In this document: positions 4,938 to 21,490 of the stretch, piece by piece
Numbering within the stretch: the stretch's first letter is position 1
Layout of the letters: each line of letters opens with the position of its first letter
Notes under the pieces: generated by a model
Database searches by the model: none
Told to the model about the DNA's origin: nothing
The model's input: the letters and a program-made list of their open reading frames with translations, nothing else
Position numbers and translations under genes: made by a program
Origin: a virus
Virus record (IMG/VR): IMGVR_UViG_3300023184_000561
Span: 1 to 22,388 of that record
DNA: 22,388 nt
Reading direction: 5' to 3' (one strand)

Positions 4938-6728
4938 ATGGCATTTTCGGGTTCTTCAGGCGATTCATCAAAACCAAAGGGTTATGAAGGTTCATTATCT
5001 CAAAATTTAAGGGGTAAACTTCCCTATAACTATAATGTGGTAGATACTGCCGAATCGAAAAATACGAAATATAAGTATTTCCAAAAGGTCGGAATGCGTA
5101 GACCAGAAGCTCTTTCCAAGAACTCTGTAAGTCTTAATAATGATTACAACAATACAGCTTTCTCTTCAATTGAAAGGGATAAATCCTTCACTGATGTCAT
5201 GTATGCTACGGCTAATGAAGATAAGCCAGCACGCATCAGAGATTATAGAATGATGGCAGGGTTCTCAGAGGTTGCTGATGCTCTTGATGAGATTTGTGAC
5301 GAGACAATTAATCCTGACGAAAATGACGAAGTTGTAATTCTTAAATTTAAAAACGTTGATTTGGAATCTGACAAGAAAGATGATCTTCAAAAAGAATGGT
5401 CAAAATATATTGAGCATTATGATCTGCACAATAATGGGTGGCAATATTTTCGACAATACTTAATTGAGGGGGAATTATTCTTCGAACAAATTATTCATGA
5501 TGAATACACCAACGAAGGAGTTCTCGGCGTAATCAACATTCCTTCTGATGTGATTGATCCTGTTTATGGTAACATCCAGAACATGTTAGTCAAGGGTTTC
5601 TTATACCAGAAACCAATTTTTGATGCCAATGATCCTAAGAAAATTGAAAAATATGAACCAATTCCATTTGAAGAAAATCAAATTGTTTATATTAGCAGTG
5701 GTGCTTATAATGATTCTAAAGATTATGTAATTCCATTTGTTGAGAATTGTCGTAGAGCTTATAGGCAGTTGAGCATGATTGAAGACGCGATTGTCATTCA
5801 TAGAATGGTGCATGCACCCTTGAGATTTGTGTTCAACGTTGATGTGGGTCGTCTCCCCGTTCCCCAAGCCGAAGCATATCTTCGTAAATTACAGCAACAA
5901 TATTGGTCCACAAAAACATTTGATGTTGACCAAAATGATATTGTCAAAAAGTATAGTCCTCAATCAACTCTAGATAGTTATTGGTTTGCTAAGAGACAAG
6001 GACAAGAAGCGACTACTGTCAGTGAAATTGGTGGGACTCCGGGTCTTGGAGAACTTGCCGACTTGATGTTCTTCATTAAAAAACTTTATAGATCTCTTAA
6101 AGTTCCAGCTTCTCGTTTAGACCCTGAAGATTCTTTCAGAGATGGGACTGATATTCTTAGAGAAGAATTAAAATTTTCGGTGATGGTTAAGAGACACCAG
6201 AAGAGATTCGCTTCTGGTTTGAAGAGAGGATTCGTTACACATTTGAAACTTCGTCATATGTTTGACGAGAATGAGTTAACTGAACAGAATATTTCTATTG
6301 TGTTCAACGAACCTTCAAATTTTGCAGAAATGCGAAATAATCAGAAGACCGAAATGAAGATGGGAACATTTAGCAATGCTATTGGAAGTGGTAAGATTTC
6401 CGAAAGCTTTGCGATGAAGAAATATTTAAATTGGAATGATAAGGAAATTCTGGCTAACCGCGCATTGAGAAAGAGCGATGCTGCTTGTGAGTGGGAACTT
6501 CAAATGGTGTTGGCAAATGGCCCAGATTATAAAAATATTTTATTGGCCCAAGCAAATGCGGGACAGCCAGTCGGTGGAGATGAAATACCGTCTGGAGGAA
6601 TTCCAAGTGGTGGTGGTCTACCACCCGAATTCGGAGGGGGGGAGGCAGCTATAGGCGGGGAAGACATGCCCCCCAATGCGGGAGTCCCACCAGAACAGCC
6701 AGCAGTGGGTGAGGAACCTCCAGTTTAA
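4938..6728 (+). CDS. 20: Portal vertex protein (T4 gp20-like)
   Basis: The portal forms the dodecameric ring at one capsid vertex, nucleates prohead assembly and is the DNA channel for packaging. Conserved T4-portal stretches include QAEAYLRKLQQQYWSTKTFD, DSYWFAKRQGQEATTVSEIGG, ADLMFFIKKLYRSLKVPASRL and DGTDILREELKFSVMVKRHQ, roughly residues 305-430. The last 50 or so residues are a low-complexity Gly/Pro/Glu tail (SGGIPSGGGLPPEFGGG and similar). That tail makes the protein 596 residues long, against 524 in T4, and the nucleotide sequence there becomes noticeably G-rich. The ATG is fixed by a TAAATA 5 nt upstream. The gene ends only 10 nt from a convergent minus-strand gene. Confidence 0.95.
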   Translation: MAFSGSSGDSSKPKGYEGSLSQNLRGKLPYNYNVVDTAESKNTKYKYFQKVGMRRPEALSKNSVSLNNDYNNTAFSSIERDKSFTDVMYATANEDKPARIRDYRMMAGFSEVADALDEICDETINPDENDEVVILKFKNVDLESDKKDDLQKEWSKYIEHYDLHNNGWQYFRQYLIEGELFFEQIIHDEYTNEGVLGVINIPSDVIDPVYGNIQNMLVKGFLYQKPIFDANDPKKIEKYEPIPFEENQIVYISSGAYNDSKDYVIPFVENCRRAYRQLSMIEDAIVIHRMVHAPLRFVFNVDVGRLPVPQAEAYLRKLQQQYWSTKTFDVDQNDIVKKYSPQSTLDSYWFAKRQGQEATTVSEIGGTPGLGELADLMFFIKKLYRSLKVPASRLDPEDSFRDGTDILREELKFSVMVKRHQKRFASGLKRGFVTHLKLRHMFDENELTEQNISIVFNEPSNFAEMRNNQKTEMKMGTFSNAIGSGKISESFAMKKYLNWNDKEILANRALRKSDAACEWELQMVLANGPDYKNILLAQANAGQPVGGDEIPSGGIPSGGGLPPEFGGGEAAIGGEDMPPNAGVPPEQPAVGEEPPV

Positions 6729-6738
6729 ATTATAAAGT

Positions 6739-7374
6739 TCATTTGAAAATATTATTCATTGCCAGAACATTGACTGGTCTTTGTGAAGCTTTCATCAATG
6801 GTGGTCTGTGTGTAATAATCGCAACACAGTCATGCATCATCGCGCCGTGAAATTCTCCGGGTTCCAAAATCCAAACATCACCAGCGATGTATCTTTTCCC
6901 GGTTTTTAGACAAGTCATATAACCCTCTTCAATTCTAACTTCTTCGGAAGTTGATTCATGGCAATGTTCTGGAAAATTTCCAAATCCATTACAAACCAGT
7001 GATAATTTTGTGCTATTTTTTGTATGACTGATGACCGTCATCGATACATTTTCTAAAAAACATAATGCCACATTGGGTATCATTGGAACATGTAGGAAAT
7101 TTCCATCAGGAAATTTTAAATCTAGTGTATAATAATCTTCTGGATTTAGATCTTGGGTCGCTTTTGTTAATTGTTTAGCTATTAATTTTTGGACAGAATT
7201 GGTATTAGCCTCTATTAATTTATCGGTCTGTTGATCCGTTATTTTTTTGAAAATCCAACTACATGCACCAATGGTTGGGACCACTATAGCTGCCACATAT
7301 CCTAATATAACTCCAATATGTTTTAATATCTGTTCTACATTTTCTATAGGAGGTAAAACGGAGAATATGGTCAT
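6739..7374 (-). CDS. Membrane-anchored cupin-domain protein
   Basis: This 211-residue protein is encoded against the structural genes. Residues 19-43 form a hydrophobic segment (IGVILGYVAAIVVPTIGACSW) that should be a membrane anchor. A Lys/Gln-rich helical linker follows. The C-terminal part is a cupin-like beta barrel: motif 1 has H137, H139, E144 and G151 in the standard HxH-x4-E-x6-G spacing, and motif 2 has G165, P172-G173 and H176. A bound metal ion is therefore likely, with H137, H139, E144 and H176 as ligands. The substrate is unknown; cupins include dioxygenases, isomerases and sugar or small-molecule sensors. ATTAAATA precedes the ATG by 5 nt, suggesting expression with the structural genes. 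It may act in the host envelope. Confidence 0.7.
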   Translation of the reverse strand: MTIFSVLPPIENVEQILKHIGVILGYVAAIVVPTIGACSWIFKKITDQQTDKLIEANTNSVQKLIAKQLTKATQDLNPEDYYTLDLKFPDGNFLHVPMIPNVALCFLENVSMTVISHTKNSTKLSLVCNGFGNFPEHCHESTSEEVRIEEGYMTCLKTGKRYIAGDVWILEPGEFHGAMMHDCVAIITHRPPLMKASQRPVNVLAMNNIFK

Positions 7375-7379
7375 TATAA

Positions 7380-7387
7380 TATTTAAT
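7380..7387 (-). promoter_or_regulatory. ATTAAATA element (cupin gene)
   Basis: On the minus strand ATTAAATA ends 5 nt before the ATG at 7374. A weaker TTGCAT lies 18 nt upstream (7409-7404). The element fills the 19-nt gap between the two minus-strand genes. Confidence 0.45.
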
Positions 7388-7393
7388 AATCAA

Positions 7394-7684
7394 TCAAAAA
7401 CTGATGCAATTAAATGCGGAAGAGTAATAATATTTGGTTCCATTATTTGCGGATAATGAAAGACCTGCATCAGAACTCACCGAGCATGTGTAAAAATAAT
7501 ATTTCGTGGGACCATTATTTGCAGAAGGTGCTACATATCTTGTGGGTTGACCCCAAAGAATGAAATCATTACTCGATAACCAATAATAAGAAGTTCCGTT
7601 ATTAGAACTCAAATTTGGGGACACTGATGCGACTCCAGTGGGTTTTCTGTAATATTGAGTTCCATTATTGTCGGTGAGTGCCAC
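7394..7684 (-). CDS. Small NNGTxYY-repeat protein
   Basis: I do not recognise this 96-residue protein. It contains four copies of a short motif: NNGTQYY (residues 6-12), NNGTSYY (28-34), NNGPTKYY (56-63) and NNGTKYY (80-86), spaced 22 to 28 residues apart. The composition is rich in Ser, Asn, Tyr and Gly with few charges, as in beta-structured extracellular or fibre repeats. There is no signal peptide. The GTG start is selected because GTTAAATA ends 6 nt upstream; no in-frame ATG fits better. It is 19 nt upstream of the cupin gene on the same strand and divergent from gp13. A minor virion or surface-binding role is possible but unproven. Confidence 0.6.
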   Translation of the reverse strand: MALTDNNGTQYYRKPTGVASVSPNLSSNNGTSYYWLSSNDFILWGQPTRYVAPSANNGPTKYYFYTCSVSSDAGLSLSANNGTKYYYSSAFNCISF

Positions 7685-7690
7685 AACAAT

Positions 7691-7707
7691 TATTTAACAT
7701 CTAAATA
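7691..7707. promoter_or_regulatory. Divergent back-to-back TAAATA elements
   Basis: GTTAAATA on the minus strand (7698-7691) and CTAAATA on the plus strand (7701-7707) abut. They form the inverted repeat TATTTA-N5-TAAATA. The minus copy serves the GTG at 7684 (6 nt) and the plus copy the ATG at 7713 (5 nt). Neither has a TTG -35 box at the usual distance. Confidence 0.5.
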
Positions 7708-7712
7708 TTGAT

Positions 7713-8858
7713 ATGTCTCAGCTTTGTGTAATTCAACCAATTTCTGCTTTTCAAAACACTAACCTGAATTCACATATTGAATGTATTCAAGGATTGGGTC
7801 AAAGAATTTTGAGAATGTTGGGACATCCGATGATCAATGTTGAATTACACCCTGATCAATTATATGATGCAATTTCAATGGCTTGTGAATTTTTCACAGT
7901 CTATTCGGGATATACGAAAGAATATATTATATTCGATAGTAAAATTTATGAACCGCATAAAGGATTGAGGCTTGATCATTTGTATACGGTCGCTAATACT
8001 AATTTTACATTGAGTCAAAAACTTACACAACCACAAGATCCAAACGCTGATACTAATATTGAGTTTCGTGGAAACTTATATATTTCATTGTCTGAAATTC
8101 CTCAAAGTTATTTTATCTCATCATCTTCTTTGAGTTCCGCAGTCCCAGAAGTCGGAATCACAAAAATGCAGATTCTAGATCAGACATCATTTTCAGAATT
8201 GACAGCATTTAATTCTGGATTGCGTAGACTATTTTTACAATCCCCTCAGAAATCATTCACTATGTCTTGCGAAGATGTCACAGGTGTCACACAAATCAAT
8301 AACATGTTTGATTATGATATCATGGATTACAGAAAAGTTATTGATGTTGTGAACTTCGAGGAGGGTTCCAGTAATGGATTCACATCACTCTTTACGACTG
8401 AAAGTTTGATGGCTCAACAATTAAACAGTTTAAACATGGGATCATTTGGGTTCGATTTATTATCTTGGCACACCACTAAAGATTGGATCGACACAAGAGA
8501 AAAAGTTTTGGCTACTCGAAGAGATTTTTCATTCGACCCAAGAACCCAATATCTAAGATTTTTTCCACAACCAAAAACAGGAACACATTTCTATGGAATA
8601 TTGGAATGTTATGTGGAAAGACCATTTAGAGATGTGGTGAAAGAAAAATGGGTGTTGGAGTATGCGACGGCATTATCAAAAATAATGTGGGCAAGAATAC
8701 TCACTAAGGTGTCTGGTGTTCAGCTTCTTGGTGGTGGTAATTTGAACGGTTCCGATGTCCTTCAAGAAGGTAATGCTGATAAGTTAAGACTTGAAGAATT
8801 GCTGATTGAAGGTGGTTACGGCTCAACACCTCCTATGATGACAATGGGAATGTATTAA
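7713..8858 (+). CDS. 13: Neck / head completion protein (T4 gp13-like)
   Basis: This homologue of T4 gp13 sits below the portal after DNA packaging and helps join the tail. The N-terminal segment RMLGHPMINVELHPDQLYDAI (residues 34-54) aligns with T4 gp13, recalled as [21 protein letters not shown]. It is followed by the expected helical stretch containing EFFTVYSGYTKEYIIF. The C-terminal region includes FRDVVKEKWVLEYATALSKIMWARIL, typical of the family, and ends in a Gly/Met-rich tail. It has 381 residues against about 309 in T4. The ATG is supported by TAAATA 5 nt upstream. No gp14 homologue follows it; the long fibre gene begins 40 nt later. Confidence 0.9.
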   Translation: MSQLCVIQPISAFQNTNLNSHIECIQGLGQRILRMLGHPMINVELHPDQLYDAISMACEFFTVYSGYTKEYIIFDSKIYEPHKGLRLDHLYTVANTNFTLSQKLTQPQDPNADTNIEFRGNLYISLSEIPQSYFISSSSLSSAVPEVGITKMQILDQTSFSELTAFNSGLRRLFLQSPQKSFTMSCEDVTGVTQINNMFDYDIMDYRKVIDVVNFEEGSSNGFTSLFTTESLMAQQLNSLNMGSFGFDLLSWHTTKDWIDTREKVLATRRDFSFDPRTQYLRFFPQPKTGTHFYGILECYVERPFRDVVKEKWVLEYATALSKIMWARILTKVSGVQLLGGGNLNGSDVLQEGNADKLRLEELLIEGGYGSTPPMMTMGMY

Positions 8859-8898: not shown

Positions 8899-11800
8899 AT
8901 GCAAGTTTTTTCAGAAAAGGTTAACCACACCTCTACGAATGGCTTTCTAAACATCTTACAAACCGAATCGTTTGAGGAAATTTTTTATGATGTTTTTGAA
9001 GTTCAGATTAACGGCAACAAATACCCACTGGAAAAAATCTCTGAATATAAGGGATCTCCAGTGGTTTCTGTTCCTGTTTTAGTAGAGGATCAAGAAGTAT
9101 TCTTCCCCTTTGTTTTAGTCAAAGGAAAGCAAGAGATTATTTTCAATGAAAATAATACCTTAGATACACTTTCTCTGGACGGAGATGTCGATCTGATTAA
9201 AGAAAAAATTATCGTTCCTGTTGTGGAGGAAACGAAGGAGGTGGTTATAATTGAACAAACTCCAACTATTCAATATCAAAATGATAAAAGGTCTGAGATT
9301 TTAGAAGAAATTGCACAATCTAAAAAGGAAGCTCTCGAATATGCTAATTTTGTCAAAGATGAGAAAATTAAAGAAGCTAATAAGGTTATCAAAAGAGATA
9401 ACAAACTTTTAGAAAAAACTCTGGATGACGCAAGATCTGGATTGGTTGAGGACTTCTTGAATATTTCAAAGAAAATCAAGGATGACTTATTCGATTTCTC
9501 AAATGATTCAGAATCCAAATTATCTGAAAAAATTGATAATCGGATAAGTATCATATCAGAAGATCTTAAAAGATCCCTCTCCAATAATTTTGATGAATCA
9601 TCCAAACATTTTGACAAAAATGTAAAAGAAGTAATCAAGGAACTTTATAAATCGATTGTAATTCCTAAAGTTGATTCGGAACTTAAATCGATTTCTACTG
9701 ATATTGTGGAAAAAGTTTCCGAAATTGAAACTGAGCTATATAACAAACTTGACGAGACTCTTGCATCAAAGGCAGATAAAACTTTAATCGAAAGTATAAA
9801 TGAAGAAGTTCAGAACATACAGAAATTAAATGTCGAACTGAATGATAACATCAACAAAGGATTAAGCAAGGCTTTGTCTAGGGTTGGTAAGGTTTCTAAA
9901 GAATTTGAAACTTTTTCAGAAGAGATTGATAAAAAAATTGATCAATCAGCTCAAGAAATTTCCGATTATTATACTCAACGAGTAGAGTTACTTGAGACAC
10001 AAGCTTTTGATTTAAATGATAAAACCAGACAATATTTTATCGGTCTTATTGAAGAGAGTCGTGATAATCTAATTGAAGAAATTAGAAGAACCAAAGAAGA
10101 GTCTCCTGTCGAATATCTTGTTGAAGCAATGGGTAAAAAAGACCCGGAAGTTGTAAGTATTGATAAGCTAAAGAAAGAGTATGATAAGATTATCCATGAT
10201 AAGTTTGAAAATTATAAGGTAGATCTTCGAAAGTATATCACCGTATATGGTGGTGGCGGTTCTGGAACCGTCGCTATGCAGTTTGCTGATGGTGGAACTA
10301 TGAATGGCGATTTGAATGTAACCTCTCGAATATTGAGTGGTGGTGTTGATCTTGCTACATTGTTCTCTGGTGGGGGAGGTGGTGCAACTGGTGCATATCT
10401 CCCACTATCTGGGGGAACTATGACAGGTAGTGTAACTGCAAATTCTTTTGTAACACTAAACGGTCTTTCTTCACAGTTTGTTAAAGGTGATGGATCTCTT
10501 GATGATACTCAATATCTTACATCAGAATCATTAAATTCTAATGTTATTTTATATCCTACAACTGCTGTATCAGATCTTAGTGCAACATACAAATTAGTTG
10601 CTTCACTAACTGATCCTGATTATGATCAACCTGCTGTTGATATTTCAACCGGATCAATTAATGCTGATGAAAAATTAGTAGGAACCTTGGCATCCGCCGC
10701 TGGAATAATTGTAGGTCATCCGGGAGTTATTAATGTTACAGTTTTGGGTAACATTCGTAAAACCGCTGGATCTAGTAGTTCTTCTGCAACTTTTCATTTC
10801 CATGTATACAAAAGAAGTTCTAGTGGAACACTAACTCTAATTGGCATTAGTGATAATACATTACCATCTACAAATGCAGTATATGCACAGTTTTCAACTT
10901 CGCTTGTAGCTAATTTTGGTGATTGGGTTGCAACTGATAGAATCGTTGTTGAATTTTATGCACAACGCGTTGTTGGTGGAGGAAATCCAACGTATGATTT
11001 TGAATACGGTGGTGAAACTCCTGTTCGTATTTTGCTACCTCTTCCAACAAATGTTTTATTATCTGAGTATGTTCCTTATACGGGTGCTACTACTAATTTA
11101 AATTTAGGTAGTAATGCTATGATCGCAACTAACATCTTAGTATATAATGATATTGATGCATCAACAGGTAATATTTATGGAAAATTTTCAAGGCTTCAAC
11201 CTGTTGGATATTCTTCAAATATTGCATTAGAGGTAGATGATATAGATGCTAATACAAGATTTACTGTTACTGGTAATGGAGATGTTTCTACTCAAGGTAA
11301 TATAGAGTCTGCTGGACTTATAGCAGGTAATTCATTAAGTGTTGGTGGTGATTCTGCTTTTGGTGTTGATACAACATTTACATATTCTGGACCTTCTGCT
11401 TTAACGCACAGAACCGCTTTGGGTCTTGGAACAGGTAATAGTCCCACATTTAATAGTGTAGGATCTGGAAACTTGGTTTATAGAGGTGGTAATACTAATG
11501 CTGCTGCATTAACAATCGGAACCAATGATGCGTATGCATTAAATTTTGAGACAAATGGTGTTACAAGAATGTCTATATTGAGTTCTGGTAATGTTGGTAT
11601 TGGGACAATAACACCAACAGCTAAATTAGAAATCACAGATACTACTCTTGCTGGTGGTGCTGGGTTAAGTGGTTCTGCTTTAATTGTAAACCAAACTTGG
11701 AATACTAATTTAACACCAACCGCTTTTTCGGTAAAGGTAACTGACTTATCTAGTAATGCTTCATCATTATTAATGGATTTACAGGTTGGTGGAAGTAGTA

Positions 11801-13953
11801 AGTTTAAAGTTGACAAAAATGGACTAATTACCACTACTAATGGATTGATGTCAAATTCAATTCTTTATCTTGGATCATACAATAATCAGTATGCCGCAGG
11901 ATTATATTCGAATGGTGATTTAAGAGCTTCCATCATTCGCGCCGGGTTGGGAAATAACAGTCCTTCCTTTACAGCAGATGCTAATGATATCATGGCACAA
12001 CGTAACGGTTTAACATCACAAACCTTCAACCTTTACAACACTTACACATCTGCAACATCAGCAGAACGTGCTACATTTAAGTTTGTTAATAATGATTTTG
12101 TTATTGGTGCTGAAACACTGCCATTGTCAGGTCCACAAAGAAGCATGTTGTTTCAAACTGGAAGTGCTACAAGGATGAGTATTCTAAGTAGTGGTAATGT
12201 TGGTATTGGAACAACAACTTCACCAGAAAAACTTACTGTAGTTGGAAATATAAGTGCTACTGGAAACATCTTTTCAAACTTTCTAAGTCCTAATACGTCT
12301 TTCACACCTCAGTATATTGGAGGTACAAGTGTTAGTACTGCTGCTCTCAAAGTCCAACAAGGTTCTGGGGGATATGCTAGAATTTCGGATGTTGAATCTT
12401 TTCAGTGGTCATCAACTGGCAACTTAGATAACGCGGCTGACTTATCATTATCGAGAGATCTAGCGAATACATTAGCACAACGTAACGGTTTAAACGCTCA
12501 AGAATTTAGACTCTATAACACTTACACTTCGGCAACATCCGCAGAACGTGCAACATTTAAGTTTGTTAATAATGATTTTGTAATTGGTGCTGAGACACTA
12601 CCATTATCAGGTCCACAACGTAGCATGTTGTTTCAAACAAATAGTGCTACAAGAATGTCATTACTAAGCACAGGTGAAGTTAATTTCTCGGGAAATGGAA
12701 ACTTGACCATGCCTTACACTAAGAAAGTATTGGCAACGGGTGGACCTATGTTTATTGGATCTAATGAAGGTTATTCAGTCAATATTGTAGGTGGTTCTGC
12801 TGGAAATTGGTATTCTGGAATATTTACAAATAATTCGACAAATGATAATAGATTATATGTTGGAGGTGGTATTGGATTCGGTTTGCTTAATTCAGGTTCA
12901 CTTGCAAATAATGATGTATCATTAATTCGTAGTTTATCAGGAACACTTGACCAACGTTCTGGTACAACATCACAAACCTTCAACCTTTACAACACATACA
13001 CATCTGCAACATCAGCAGAACGTGCTACATTTAAGTTTGATTCTAATAATAATTTTGTAATTGGTGCTGAAACACTTCCATTGTCAGGTCCACAAAGAAG
13101 CATGTTGTTTCAAACAAATAATGCTACAAGGATGACAATTCTAAGTAGCGGTAATGTTGGTATTGGTGTAGCAAACCCAACAGGTAAACTTGTAATTGAT
13201 GCCCCTAATAGCATAACTAATAGAAATTTAGTATTTGAGCAAAGCACTGGTTCATCCGCGCAGGTTAATGAAATTGTTTGGCGTTCTTCGTCTGGATCTA
13301 TTTTTGATTACGCTAAGATTAAAACTTCTTATGGAACTTCTTACCTTAACAGTTATTTCACAATTCAGGTAGCAAGTTCTGCCCAAGTATTACAAGATAG
13401 ATTTCATATTAATACAGTTGGTAATGTTGGTATTGGAACAATTTTACCATCAGAAGCACTTACTGTAGTTGGGAATATAAGTGCAACTGGAGCTGTAACA
13501 GCAGGAGGTGCAACCTATTCTTCTGTTATTGGGTATAATGCAACAGTAGGTGGATATTTTCAATGTGGTGCAAATTCAACATTAGTTGGTTTATGTAGCC
13601 CCAACACTGATAACCTTACGCCAATTATTAACGGTGTAACATCTAATAATACAGTAGATTTAGGCAAATCTGCAACAAGATTTAGAAAACTTTACGTTGG
13701 AGGTGTTGATCTCACTGGAGATTCTACTTATGGTGCTGCCGCAACATTCACCTACAATGCTGCTGCTGTAACAACGCATAGAAATGCTTTGGGTCTTGGT
13801 GTCGCACAAACTCCAACTTTTGGTGGTTTAAGTTCAACGGGTGATATTGAAATCACTGATTCGACCAAAGGTATTATCCTAAAATCTCCAAACGGAGCAA
13901 GATGGAGAATAACTATAAATGATGCTGGATTATTAACACCAACATCAATCTAA
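8899..13953 (+). CDS. Large virion fibre protein with coiled coil and internal repeats
   Basis: This 1684-residue protein is a probable neck or tail fibre or whisker involved in host contact. Residues 1 to about 95 form a beta-rich attachment-like domain. Residues of about 110-440 are a long charged coiled coil (many Lys/Glu heptads). A Gly-rich hinge begins at residue 451, followed by the phage-fibre motif LPLSGGTMTG (501-510). A beta domain lies at about 535-715, then VPYTGATTNLNLGSN. After that come repeated modules with LYNTYTSATSAERATFKF and NVGIGT. It ends in ILKSPNGARWRITINDAGLL, a common phage-fibre terminus, without an endosialidase-type chaperone domain. Its place next to gp13 resembles that of T4 fibritin (wac), which suggests a neck fibre; a tail fibre is the alternative. 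Confidence 0.85.
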   Translation: MQVFSEKVNHTSTNGFLNILQTESFEEIFYDVFEVQINGNKYPLEKISEYKGSPVVSVPVLVEDQEVFFPFVLVKGKQEIIFNENNTLDTLSLDGDVDLIKEKIIVPVVEETKEVVIIEQTPTIQYQNDKRSEILEEIAQSKKEALEYANFVKDEKIKEANKVIKRDNKLLEKTLDDARSGLVEDFLNISKKIKDDLFDFSNDSESKLSEKIDNRISIISEDLKRSLSNNFDESSKHFDKNVKEVIKELYKSIVIPKVDSELKSISTDIVEKVSEIETELYNKLDETLASKADKTLIESINEEVQNIQKLNVELNDNINKGLSKALSRVGKVSKEFETFSEEIDKKIDQSAQEISDYYTQRVELLETQAFDLNDKTRQYFIGLIEESRDNLIEEIRRTKEESPVEYLVEAMGKKDPEVVSIDKLKKEYDKIIHDKFENYKVDLRKYITVYGGGGSGTVAMQFADGGTMNGDLNVTSRILSGGVDLATLFSGGGGGATGAYLPLSGGTMTGSVTANSFVTLNGLSSQFVKGDGSLDDTQYLTSESLNSNVILYPTTAVSDLSATYKLVASLTDPDYDQPAVDISTGSINADEKLVGTLASAAGIIVGHPGVINVTVLGNIRKTAGSSSSSATFHFHVYKRSSSGTLTLIGISDNTLPSTNAVYAQFSTSLVANFGDWVATDRIVVEFYAQRVVGGGNPTYDFEYGGETPVRILLPLPTNVLLSEYVPYTGATTNLNLGSNAMIATNILVYNDIDASTGNIYGKFSRLQPVGYSSNIALEVDDIDANTRFTVTGNGDVSTQGNIESAGLIAGNSLSVGGDSAFGVDTTFTYSGPSALTHRTALGLGTGNSPTFNSVGSGNLVYRGGNTNAAALTIGTNDAYALNFETNGVTRMSILSSGNVGIGTITPTAKLEITDTTLAGGAGLSGSALIVNQTWNTNLTPTAFSVKVTDLSSNASSLLMDLQVGGSSKFKVDKNGLITTTNGLMSNSILYLGSYNNQYAAGLYSNGDLRASIIRAGLGNNSPSFTADANDIMAQRNGLTSQTFNLYNTYTSATSAERATFKFVNNDFVIGAETLPLSGPQRSMLFQTGSATRMSILSSGNVGIGTTTSPEKLTVVGNISATGNIFSNFLSPNTSFTPQYIGGTSVSTAALKVQQGSGGYARISDVESFQWSSTGNLDNAADLSLSRDLANTLAQRNGLNAQEFRLYNTYTSATSAERATFKFVNNDFVIGAETLPLSGPQRSMLFQTNSATRMSLLSTGEVNFSGNGNLTMPYTKKVLATGGPMFIGSNEGYSVNIVGGSAGNWYSGIFTNNSTNDNRLYVGGGIGFGLLNSGSLANNDVSLIRSLSGTLDQRSGTTSQTFNLYNTYTSATSAERATFKFDSNNNFVIGAETLPLSGPQRSMLFQTNNATRMTILSSGNVGIGVANPTGKLVIDAPNSITNRNLVFEQSTGSSAQVNEIVWRSSSGSIFDYAKIKTSYGTSYLNSYFTIQVASSAQVLQDRFHINTVGNVGIGTILPSEALTVVGNISATGAVTAGGATYSSVIGYNATVGGYFQCGANSTLVGLCSPNTDNLTPIINGVTSNNTVDLGKSATRFRKLYVGGVDLTGDSTYGAAATFTYNAAAVTTHRNALGLGVAQTPTFGGLSSTGDIEITDSTKGIILKSPNGARWRITINDAGLLTPTSI
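11998..12213 (+). repeat. Fibre repeat unit 1
   Basis: This first of three related coding repeats starts at residue 1034 (QRNGLTSQTFNLYNTYTSAT) and runs to NVGIGT. It is closest to unit 3 at the nucleotide level. Confidence 0.8.
12478..12672 (+). repeat. Fibre repeat unit 2
   Basis: This unit starts at residue 1194, 160 residues after unit 1. It shares the core AERATFKFVNNDFVIGAETL and PLSGPQRSMLFQT, but has more synonymous changes and ends TRMSLLSTGEV instead of NVGIGT. Confidence 0.8.
12952..13167 (+). repeat. Fibre repeat unit 3
   Basis: This unit starts at residue 1352, 158 residues after unit 2. Long nucleotide runs are identical to unit 1, including the SQTFNLYNT stretch. A one-codon insertion gives SNNNFVIG instead of NNDFVIG. 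Confidence 0.8.
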
Positions 13954-18917: not shown

Positions 18918-18952
18918 AAACCCGAAGGATGTCAAAGTCCTTCGGGTTTTTT
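18918..18952. terminator. Strong intrinsic terminator after the capsid gene
   Basis: AAACCCGAAGGA (18918-18929) pairs perfectly with TCCTTCGGGTTT (18938-18949) around an 8-nt loop, followed by T residues to 18952. On the minus strand the stem is followed by T-rich sequence, so it may also stop transcription from the convergent endonuclease gene. Confidence 0.9.
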
Positions 18953-19704
18953 CATTTGTTGTAATCATCAAATGTTCTATATTCTGAGACATAGTGTATT
19001 ACAGTATTTTTTGGGAATGGGTGTTTACTCAATTTAGTGACCCTCTTAAAAATATATGATCCATTATTTCTAATCCTCCTAAATATAAAATCATCTGTGT
19101 GATATTTTTCCACAAAATTCTTGAGACAATTAGATTCAATGGTTTCGGTCCCATTAGGATAAACCAATCTATATGTAACCTTAGATCTCCCATGATCTTT
19201 TATAAATTTTACCTTTCTCAATTCTTTATCTGTTTTATTGTTTGTCTCTATTCTTTTTCTAATCGTATCTTTTCTTTTGCTTAAAGATTCATACCAATTA
19301 TTATATTTCTCTGGATCTTTATACATATCAAAAAGACCTTCACTCACACTCTTTTTGAATTCTTTATATTTCTCATCTCCAGCATACTCTAAATAATATC
19401 CACCTCTTCCACCCCTATGAATATTGTAACAATTTTTTCCAAATTTTCGAACTAATCTACGAATCAATTTAATTTCAAGTCGGTTTAAATTTTCAGGTGT
19501 TGTAATTTTCAATTTAAAATATCTCACCGTGAAGTTTTCCTTTCCGTATTTCTTAAATGCTTTCTTCAAATGTGTTCCAGATCCTTTATAAACTTTATTA
19601 GAAACTTTGTAATGCTTACCACCATAAACCTTACCGTTAATCATATTAATCGTAACATATAATAAATATTCAGGAACCTTATTATTGTTTTTAATCTTTC
19701 GCAT
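18952..19704 (-). CDS. GIY-YIG homing endonuclease (Seg-like)
   Basis: This is a free-standing homing endonuclease of the T4 Seg type, which cuts related phage DNA so that its own gene is copied in. The GIY-YIG domain is at the N-terminus: YLLYVTINMINGKVYGGKHY (the GIY and YIG elements read LLY and VYG), then GSGTHLKKAFKKYGKENF, typical of Seg proteins. A catalytic-type Glu is likely in LNRLEIKLIRRL. The C-terminal part is basic and probably DNA-binding. The ATG at 19704 (250 residues) is chosen over an upstream start at 19737 because CTAAATA ends 5 nt before it. It lies opposite to the structural genes between the capsid gene and the next late genes. Confidence 0.9.
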   Translation of the reverse strand: MRKIKNNNKVPEYLLYVTINMINGKVYGGKHYKVSNKVYKGSGTHLKKAFKKYGKENFTVRYFKLKITTPENLNRLEIKLIRRLVRKFGKNCYNIHRGGRGGYYLEYAGDEKYKEFKKSVSEGLFDMYKDPEKYNNWYESLSKRKDTIRKRIETNNKTDKELRKVKFIKDHGRSKVTYRLVYPNGTETIESNCLKNFVEKYHTDDFIFRRIRNNGSYIFKRVTKLSKHPFPKNTVIHYVSEYRTFDDYNK

Positions 19705-19709
19705 AAATA

Positions 19710-19737
19710 TATTTAGCATCTGTATTGGATTTGTCAA
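19710..19737 (-). promoter_or_regulatory. TTGACA-N16-TAAATA promoter (homing endonuclease)
   Basis: On the minus strand TTGACA (19737-19732) is followed after 16 nt by TAAATA (19715-19710), which ends 5 nt before the ATG at 19704. This is the best match to a bacterial -35/-10 layout in the window. Confidence 0.6.
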
Positions 19738-20938: not shown

Positions 20939-21490
20939 ATGGAAGTCTATAAATTTAATAAACTATTTATGATAGTCCTACTATTTGCGACTATTGTATC
21001 TTGTAAAAAGGTTCCAAAACCATCATCGAGTGATTACCAATATGCTGTTCCCAATATGGTAGGACAAAAACAGGAGAAAGATTTATGGTGTGCTGCGGCT
21101 GCTGCCAGAATGTTAATGAGTCAAAAGACCAATTCTTTACCCACACAATGTCAAATAGTATCTAGAGTGACTGGTAAACCTTGCGAAAATCAAAAGATAG
21201 ATGCCAAACTTGCACTAATTATGTATGGTTATTCCGTTGAGGAATTACCTATATCTTTTGATGCAGTGGTGAATTCTATAAACGAGGATAAACCAGTGAT
21301 CATTTATCATTATAATCGCAAAGGCACATTGGATGAATCGGGACATGCTGTGGTGGCATATGGAACATTTAATACTCAAGAACGAAATTATATTCTAGTA
21401 TATGATCCTTTAACTGACAATACGGTGACAATGGATAGTAGTTATGTCACCGGAAATCTAGAGTGGTATCGAGTTTTAAGAATTAACTAA
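20939..21490 (+). CDS. Lipoprotein papain-like cysteine protease
   Basis: This is probably a lipid-anchored cysteine protease of the C39/AvrRpt2 papain-like type. The 183-residue sequence starts with a signal peptide (FNKLFMIVLLFATIVS) and lipobox IVSC, with Cys22 as the lipidated residue followed by KK, as is common in Bacteroidota lipoproteins. The catalytic set fits papain spacing: Q45 six residues before C51 (DLWCAAAAARML), H136 in SGHAVVAYG and D156 in VYDPLT. Cys71 and Cys82 might form a disulfide. The target is unknown. Being exported and membrane-anchored, it could act in superinfection exclusion, lysis or toxin-like modification of the host envelope. It lies between a terminator and the baseplate hub gene, 3 nt from the latter. 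Confidence 0.8.
   Translation: MEVYKFNKLFMIVLLFATIVSCKKVPKPSSSDYQYAVPNMVGQKQEKDLWCAAAAARMLMSQKTNSLPTQCQIVSRVTGKPCENQKIDAKLALIMYGYSVEELPISFDAVVNSINEDKPVIIYHYNRKGTLDESGHAVVAYGTFNTQERNYILVYDPLTDNTVTMDSSYVTGNLEWYRVLRIN

Follow-up and report, generated by a model that had tools for sequence, protein, structure and literature searches.

Among described viruses, the group closest to the one analysed here is that of the uncultivated Far-T4 phages, aquatic members of the T4 superfamily presented as sharing a conserved structural module (Roux et al. 2015, PMC4360716); one marine Far-T4-like genome has been linked in silico to Bacteroidetes (PMC7198788). The portal and capsid proteins encoded by our stretch of 22,388 nucleotides (the window) share only about 26–34% identity with their counterparts in cultured T4-like phages, and we refer to its clade provisionally as Far-T4-like. 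In a keyword look at PMC4360716, neither promoters nor gp13 nor opposite-strand genes came up. The subject of this work is the junction between the portal and gp13 genes, which in the window holds two minus-strand genes. One encodes a membrane-anchored cupin protein and the other a small repeat protein, here called NNG, while in related contigs the place of the cupin gene is often taken by a gene for a PAS-like protein. No description of this insertion slot, of NNG or of the PAS and cupin proteins of the slot was found in the open-access literature.

The layout of the junction is given in Table 1. The initial annotation had placed two minus-strand genes between portal and gp13, against the direction of the structural genes, and both reading frames proved to be intact; as they are also intact at the same place in other contigs, they are real genes. 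It had likewise stated that neither has an obvious T4 counterpart, and none was found. The cupin gene is convergent with the portal gene, the two stop codons lying 10 bp apart, and the NNG gene is divergent from gp13, each of the two having its own box. Screening against Rfam gave no match.

Table 1. Coordinates of the portal–gp13 junction in the window, and of the protein found in place of NNG in related loci (L numbers)
Feature	Position	Strand	Evidence or remark
Portal protein, gp20 type, left slot border	4938..6728	+	phrog_213 E=5.6e-94; TAAATA at -11
211-aa membrane-anchored cupin protein, variable cargo gene	6739..7374	-	homologues only L041/L147 and L051/L148
Predicted TM helix of cupin protein, residues 20-38	7261..7317	-	hydropathy and charge count
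Cupin motifs 1 and 2, residues 130-176	6847..6987	-	regex, shuffle test, invariance in three homologues
TAAATA, -11 from cupin gene start; putative late-type promoter box	7380..7385	-	
NNG repeat protein, 96 aa, GTG start	7394..7684	-	relatives in 52 contigs, 41/63 junctions
TAAATA, -12 from NNG gene start	7691..7696	-	
TAAATA, -11 from gp13	7702..7707	+	back to back with NNG box
gp13-like neck protein (head-tail adaptor Ad2), right slot border	7713..8858	+	phrog_211 E=5.4e-23
Alternative ~97-aa protein (CSEV...NKTGQ...LYYR, alignment A6)	L150:3062-3367, L156:5793-6110, L158, L174, L176, L140, L193		replaces NNG

Three other genes of the window deserve mention in their own right. The gene that follows gp13 (8899-13953, plus strand) encodes a 1684-aa protein without significant PHROG match, whose position is conserved in relatives and whose length is variable. 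After the major capsid gene there is a homing-endonuclease-looking reading frame (18952-19737, minus strand), GIY-YIG-like by eye, with distant relatives near the ATPase/gp3 genes in L003, L007 and L014. Finally, a gene sitting between structural genes (20939-21490, plus strand) encodes a putative lipoprotein, recognised by VSCKK behind its hydrophobic beginning, that carries a C39-like cysteine peptidase domain (Peptidase_C39_2, E=3.9e-7), possibly a phage-made envelope protease or exclusion protein.

In T4, late promoters carry a −10 box, TATAAATA, at roughly −13 to −6. The full TATAAATA occurs nowhere in the window, where TAAATA stands at a fixed place instead: 12 of the 23 genes have it at −11 to −14, where chance alone would give 0.07, and the two minus-strand genes are among those that have it, as had been noted before. 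The box has the same place in the relatives. It lies within −15 to −5 of the portal genes in all 56 distinct upstream regions (loci L001–L213), nearly always starting at −11 or −12, and at −11/−12 in 19 of 19 PAS genes, one of them at −14, while NNG genes have TAARTA at the place of the box in 31 of 35 distinct upstream regions; the cupin genes of L041 and L051 and the NNG genes of these two loci are exceptions without the box. Near the start codons of the window, no Shine-Dalgarno-like site was found. The position of the box supports the late-type start signal proposed in the initial annotation, its function as a promoter being putative. Taken together with the geometry of the T4 late promoter, the spacing of TAAATA would place the start of transcription on the A of the AUG or right beside it, which suggests that late mRNAs are leaderless if TAAATA is indeed the late −10 box; the rival reading is that TAAATA is a signal for translation. 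The PAS genes retain a box of their own even where it falls within, or at the end of, the NNG gene, which makes separate transcription of cargo and NNG probable.

The content of the junction was surveyed by a census seeded by the flanking gene, so that contigs without NNG count too: among the best 80 portal relatives in IMG/VR, the 63 showing both portal and gp13 were classified. These relatives were picked by identity, and the counts therefore describe the clade only, the contigs not being independent samples. NNG was present with a PAS-like protein in 21 junctions, with a cupin protein in 2, and alone or with other cargo in 18; the alternative protein of ~97 aa was present in 7 (once with PAS), and 15 junctions, mostly of more distant relatives, were empty. 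NNG thus occupies 41 of the 63 junctions, on the minus strand each time, and 39 of these 41 lack the cupin gene, which is known from the window and two contigs only; a PAS-like protein takes its place in 22 of the 63. These data contradict the proposal that the two genes form a self-contained cargo pair. By the refuting condition of the initial annotation, conservation throughout as part of the morphogenesis cluster, NNG, a near-constant of the junction, is refuted as cargo and the cupin gene stands.

On the portal tree of 42 rows (one contig, L196/L002, with the portal ORF in two pieces, was left out) the deepest fork within a clade of 35 rows has NNG on either side, a pattern consistent with early presence followed by several replacements or losses; in the outermost clade the portal gene abuts gp13. 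PAS forms occur in one clade plus one isolated contig, and on the tree they are restricted to a single well-supported clade, in 13 of its 13 sampled rows. The cupin forms are limited to three contigs including the window. The rows L147 and L148 group together and the window is close to them (89/87, an unstarred branch, the window itself having a long end branch), but rows without cupin lie in between, and both a single gain with loss and two separate gains are possible. In the contig L196/L002 the PAS gene stands on the opposite side of NNG and the portal protein is about 72% identical to that of the window, which indicates that the PAS gene has probably moved. Long contigs without PAS or cupin cargo have no copy of it elsewhere in the record, and this cargo should therefore be regarded as accessory.

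Like phage morons, the genes of the slot are small, stand on the opposite strand between structural genes, have their own start signal and are present or absent in relatives. They differ from morons in that NNG is a clade-wide fixture, NNG and cupin are not gained or lost together, a different gene with the same plan takes over the place of the inserted one, and no intrinsic-terminator-like site was found around the pair (positions 6600-7800 of the window). The junction might also be viewed as a passive hot spot where cargo genes share no common role and the likeness of the PAS and cupin proteins is coincidental. The 10 changes of label that slot content needs on the portal tree agree with this, as does the variety of other cargo in the slot, where DUF285 and BspA-type leucine-rich repeat proteins, other large proteins and weak HNH-like endonucleases were seen (L001:6626-8278, L043:6402-7505, L149:5739-6266, L140:1872-2489). 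A passive hot spot is poorly compatible, however, with the persistence of PAS throughout the sampled rows of one clade, with the strong conservation of its sequence and with the box kept before every one of the 19 PAS genes, and we consider this explanation very unlikely.

The NNG protein contains four NNG-x2/3-YY units that form a two-fold repeat. Among 100,000 shuffles of the 96-aa reading frame more than one unit was never obtained, and alignment of the two halves to each other scores 67, whereas shuffles reached 46 at most. Searching with the single sequence brought up relatives in 49 contigs, and searching with the alignment (A3) in 52; where the flanks were readable, they always lay on the minus strand at the portal–gp13 junction. 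An A3 search over the whole of 12 longer records (42–212 kb) found NNG exactly once in 11 of them, and in the twelfth (locus L109, which shares its contig with L193) the alternative protein stands in its place. The latter, for which L150 and L140 use the plus strand, has no detectable homology to NNG, and its identification as DUF3992 was dismissed, the PDB profile match (E=0.9) being too weak. The relatives of NNG have four conserved cysteines, two of which are kept in the window; the joint loss of C16 and the last cysteine, a single case, would be in line with these two forming a disulfide or metal pair. In L001, L043 and L044 the protein has C-terminal extensions of the NGEVLYYNG type, and these extensions, together with the replacement of NNG by the ~97-aa protein, make a role at the virion surface plausible. 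We infer that NNG is a late, beta-rich and possibly virion-associated protein.

Attempts to assign NNG to a known family were unsuccessful. The AF2 model (pLDDT 39) was useless, the PDB profiles returned only antibody chains, an unreliable result, and a spanin-like match (phrog_9385, E=0.005) was set aside because it concerned one member only and no membrane or lipoprotein signal was seen in the sequence. Searches of GenBank phages with NNG, as with the PAS slot protein and the alternative protein, gave nothing. NNG is a conserved late-type protein, apparently undescribed, and a marker for this uncultured clade.

The cupin protein has a single hydrophobic N-terminal helix with a mean hydropathy of 2.19, followed by the signature G132-x4-H137-x-H139-x4-E144-x6-G151 ... 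G165-x5-E-P-G-x2-H176, which is intact in both homologues and was reproduced in none of 60,000 shuffles. Motif 1 of the cupins, G(X)5HXH(X)3-4E(X)6G, is present in the window and likewise in L041 and L051, with one residue fewer ahead of HxH, and the match to motif 2, G(X)5PXG(X)2H(X)3N, is a loose one, with P or G substituted (G-x5-P-P-Q-x2-H in the relatives) and the final N not conserved. The putative metal ligands H137, H139, E144 and H176 are invariant across the three copies, and the residues around them are highly conserved. The Pfam model Cupin_2 (PF07883) gave E=0.045 for the window and 2.2e-4 for L041, with 13.9, 21.3 and 16.8 bits for the window, L041 and L051, all below the cut-off of 27.2. 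The two-part motif, the HxH, E and H ligands and the short inter-motif distance are those of the Cupin superfamily, from which the protein differs by the added transmembrane helix and helical linker and by its sub-threshold score. An AF2 model made from three sequences showed an N-terminal helix (13-73) and then 8 strands at a mean pLDDT of 54, and Foldseek with this weak model found no confident PDB match, the hits not being meaningful. Of the membrane cupin proposed initially, the motif and the membrane helix hold, while structure prediction was too weak to confirm the fold; the assignment is made from the motif and weak HMM evidence. The two homologues in IMG/VR, 49–51% identical, both lie between NNG and the portal gene, the three proteins being 203–211 aa long; GenBank phages gave no match, and one pattern scan of genome_contigs with the cupin profile no relative.

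The PAS-type proteins of the slot are 224–231 aa long and strongly conserved in sequence. Their plan is that of the cupin protein, with one transmembrane helix among the first 40 residues, then a helical linker and one C-terminal domain, and homology between the two types is undetectable (hhalign probability 0.5%). PAS_9 was found in 7 of 8 members, and the best values for PAS_3 and TIGR00229 were E=7e-4 and E=8e-4, all below cut-offs; the PDB profile search gave nothing reliable. An invariant CxxC in the PAS-like domain (alignment A2: L003, L010, L011, L032, L037, L038, L045, L047) is a possible redox or metal site. Sensors with a membrane-anchored PAS domain are known in the Aer-like arrangement. 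In the slot relatives, though not in the window protein, there is a PAS-like domain that resembles such PAS_3/PAS_9 sensors in being predicted cytoplasmic with one membrane anchor, and differs in that it comes without HAMP, kinase or other output domain, belongs to a late-type phage gene, carries the CxxC and scores below the cut-offs.

It had been suggested that the cupin protein senses or modifies an envelope compound. Its N-terminus is acidic or neutral, with KK soon after the helix and K/R following. In both protein types 0–1 K/R residues precede the helix, and the 25 residues after it contain 6–9 in the PAS and 3–4 in the cupin proteins. This pattern predicts an N-out/C-in orientation with the soluble domain in the cytoplasm, less firmly for cupin, and a domain placed inside the cell argues against modification of an envelope compound. 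The cupin could instead be a membrane-tethered metalloenzyme (a dioxygenase, an isomerase or similar) encoded by an auxiliary metabolic gene that occupies the slot by chance, with the PAS protein as an unrelated insertion. The ligand set, of the 3His-1Glu type, is intact in conserved surroundings, and the quercetin dioxygenase-like cupins are nearest by profile among solved sequences, though not significantly (E=0.14). Architecture, strand and slot, however, are all shared with the PAS-like protein of the sister clade, PAS domains are normally non-enzymatic and the window has no metabolic neighbour genes, so that we regard the enzyme as rather unlikely.

The T4 holin T is a late gene product of about 210–220 aa with a single N-terminal transmembrane segment, and its topology is opposite to N-out/C-in. 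The slot proteins are of similar size (about 205–230 aa), with one N-terminal transmembrane helix and a late-type box, and might be holins or antiholins in which the cytosolic PAS or cupin domain adjusts the moment of lysis to the cell's metabolic state. Identity with holin T was rejected, as the Phage_holin_T profile (PF11031) matched none of 14 records, the window among them, at E<=0.1. The same failure to find a T4-type holin speaks for an alternative lysis protein in the slot, as does the coiled-coil/TM-type protein found there in L139. The predicted topology is nevertheless the reverse of that of gpT, no lysis gene was recognised beside the slot protein, and since 18 of the 41 NNG junctions are without it, with no copy elsewhere in the long contigs checked, it is not essential. 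A holin or antiholin function appears improbable to us, and markedly so.

The reading we prefer, to which we would give slightly less than an even chance, is that the portal–gp13 junction is a small insertion slot anchored by NNG and usually filled by a membrane-tethered cytosolic sensor of the PAS or cupin type. The minus-strand NNG gene is the conserved anchor, and the gene behind it differs between lineages, most often encoding an N-terminal transmembrane helix, a helical linker and a small domain of ligand-binding type. Such a protein would be made late in infection, its soluble domain lying under the membrane in the cytoplasm. The occurrence of a PAS-like domain and a metal-type cupin in the same plan and place makes sensing of a small molecule, a metal or the redox state a likelier shared job than one specific catalysis. 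The sensed state may be reported to a membrane-linked late event, such as the timing of lysis, the exclusion of other phages or keeping the host membrane energised until assembly ends. Weighing against this reading are the PAS and cupin Pfam scores below the curated cut-offs, the low pLDDT of the cupin model, the missing box of the cupin genes in L041 and L051, the chance that the cupin is an enzyme, and the occurrence in the slot of cargo unrelated to sensing, namely HNH-like endonucleases and BspA/DUF285 repeat proteins. It is doubtful, if conceivable, that the protein acts as a late membrane-tethered cytosolic sensor without an output domain of its own, having an exchangeable module (PAS-like or metal cupin) and gating lysis or exclusion.

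From this point of view, the data suggest a virus-made membrane sensor that is used late in infection. If this is true, phage genomes carry orphan membrane sensors that are swapped as modules at one fixed place, and whether phages read the metal, redox or metabolite state of the host before a late decision would become a testable question.
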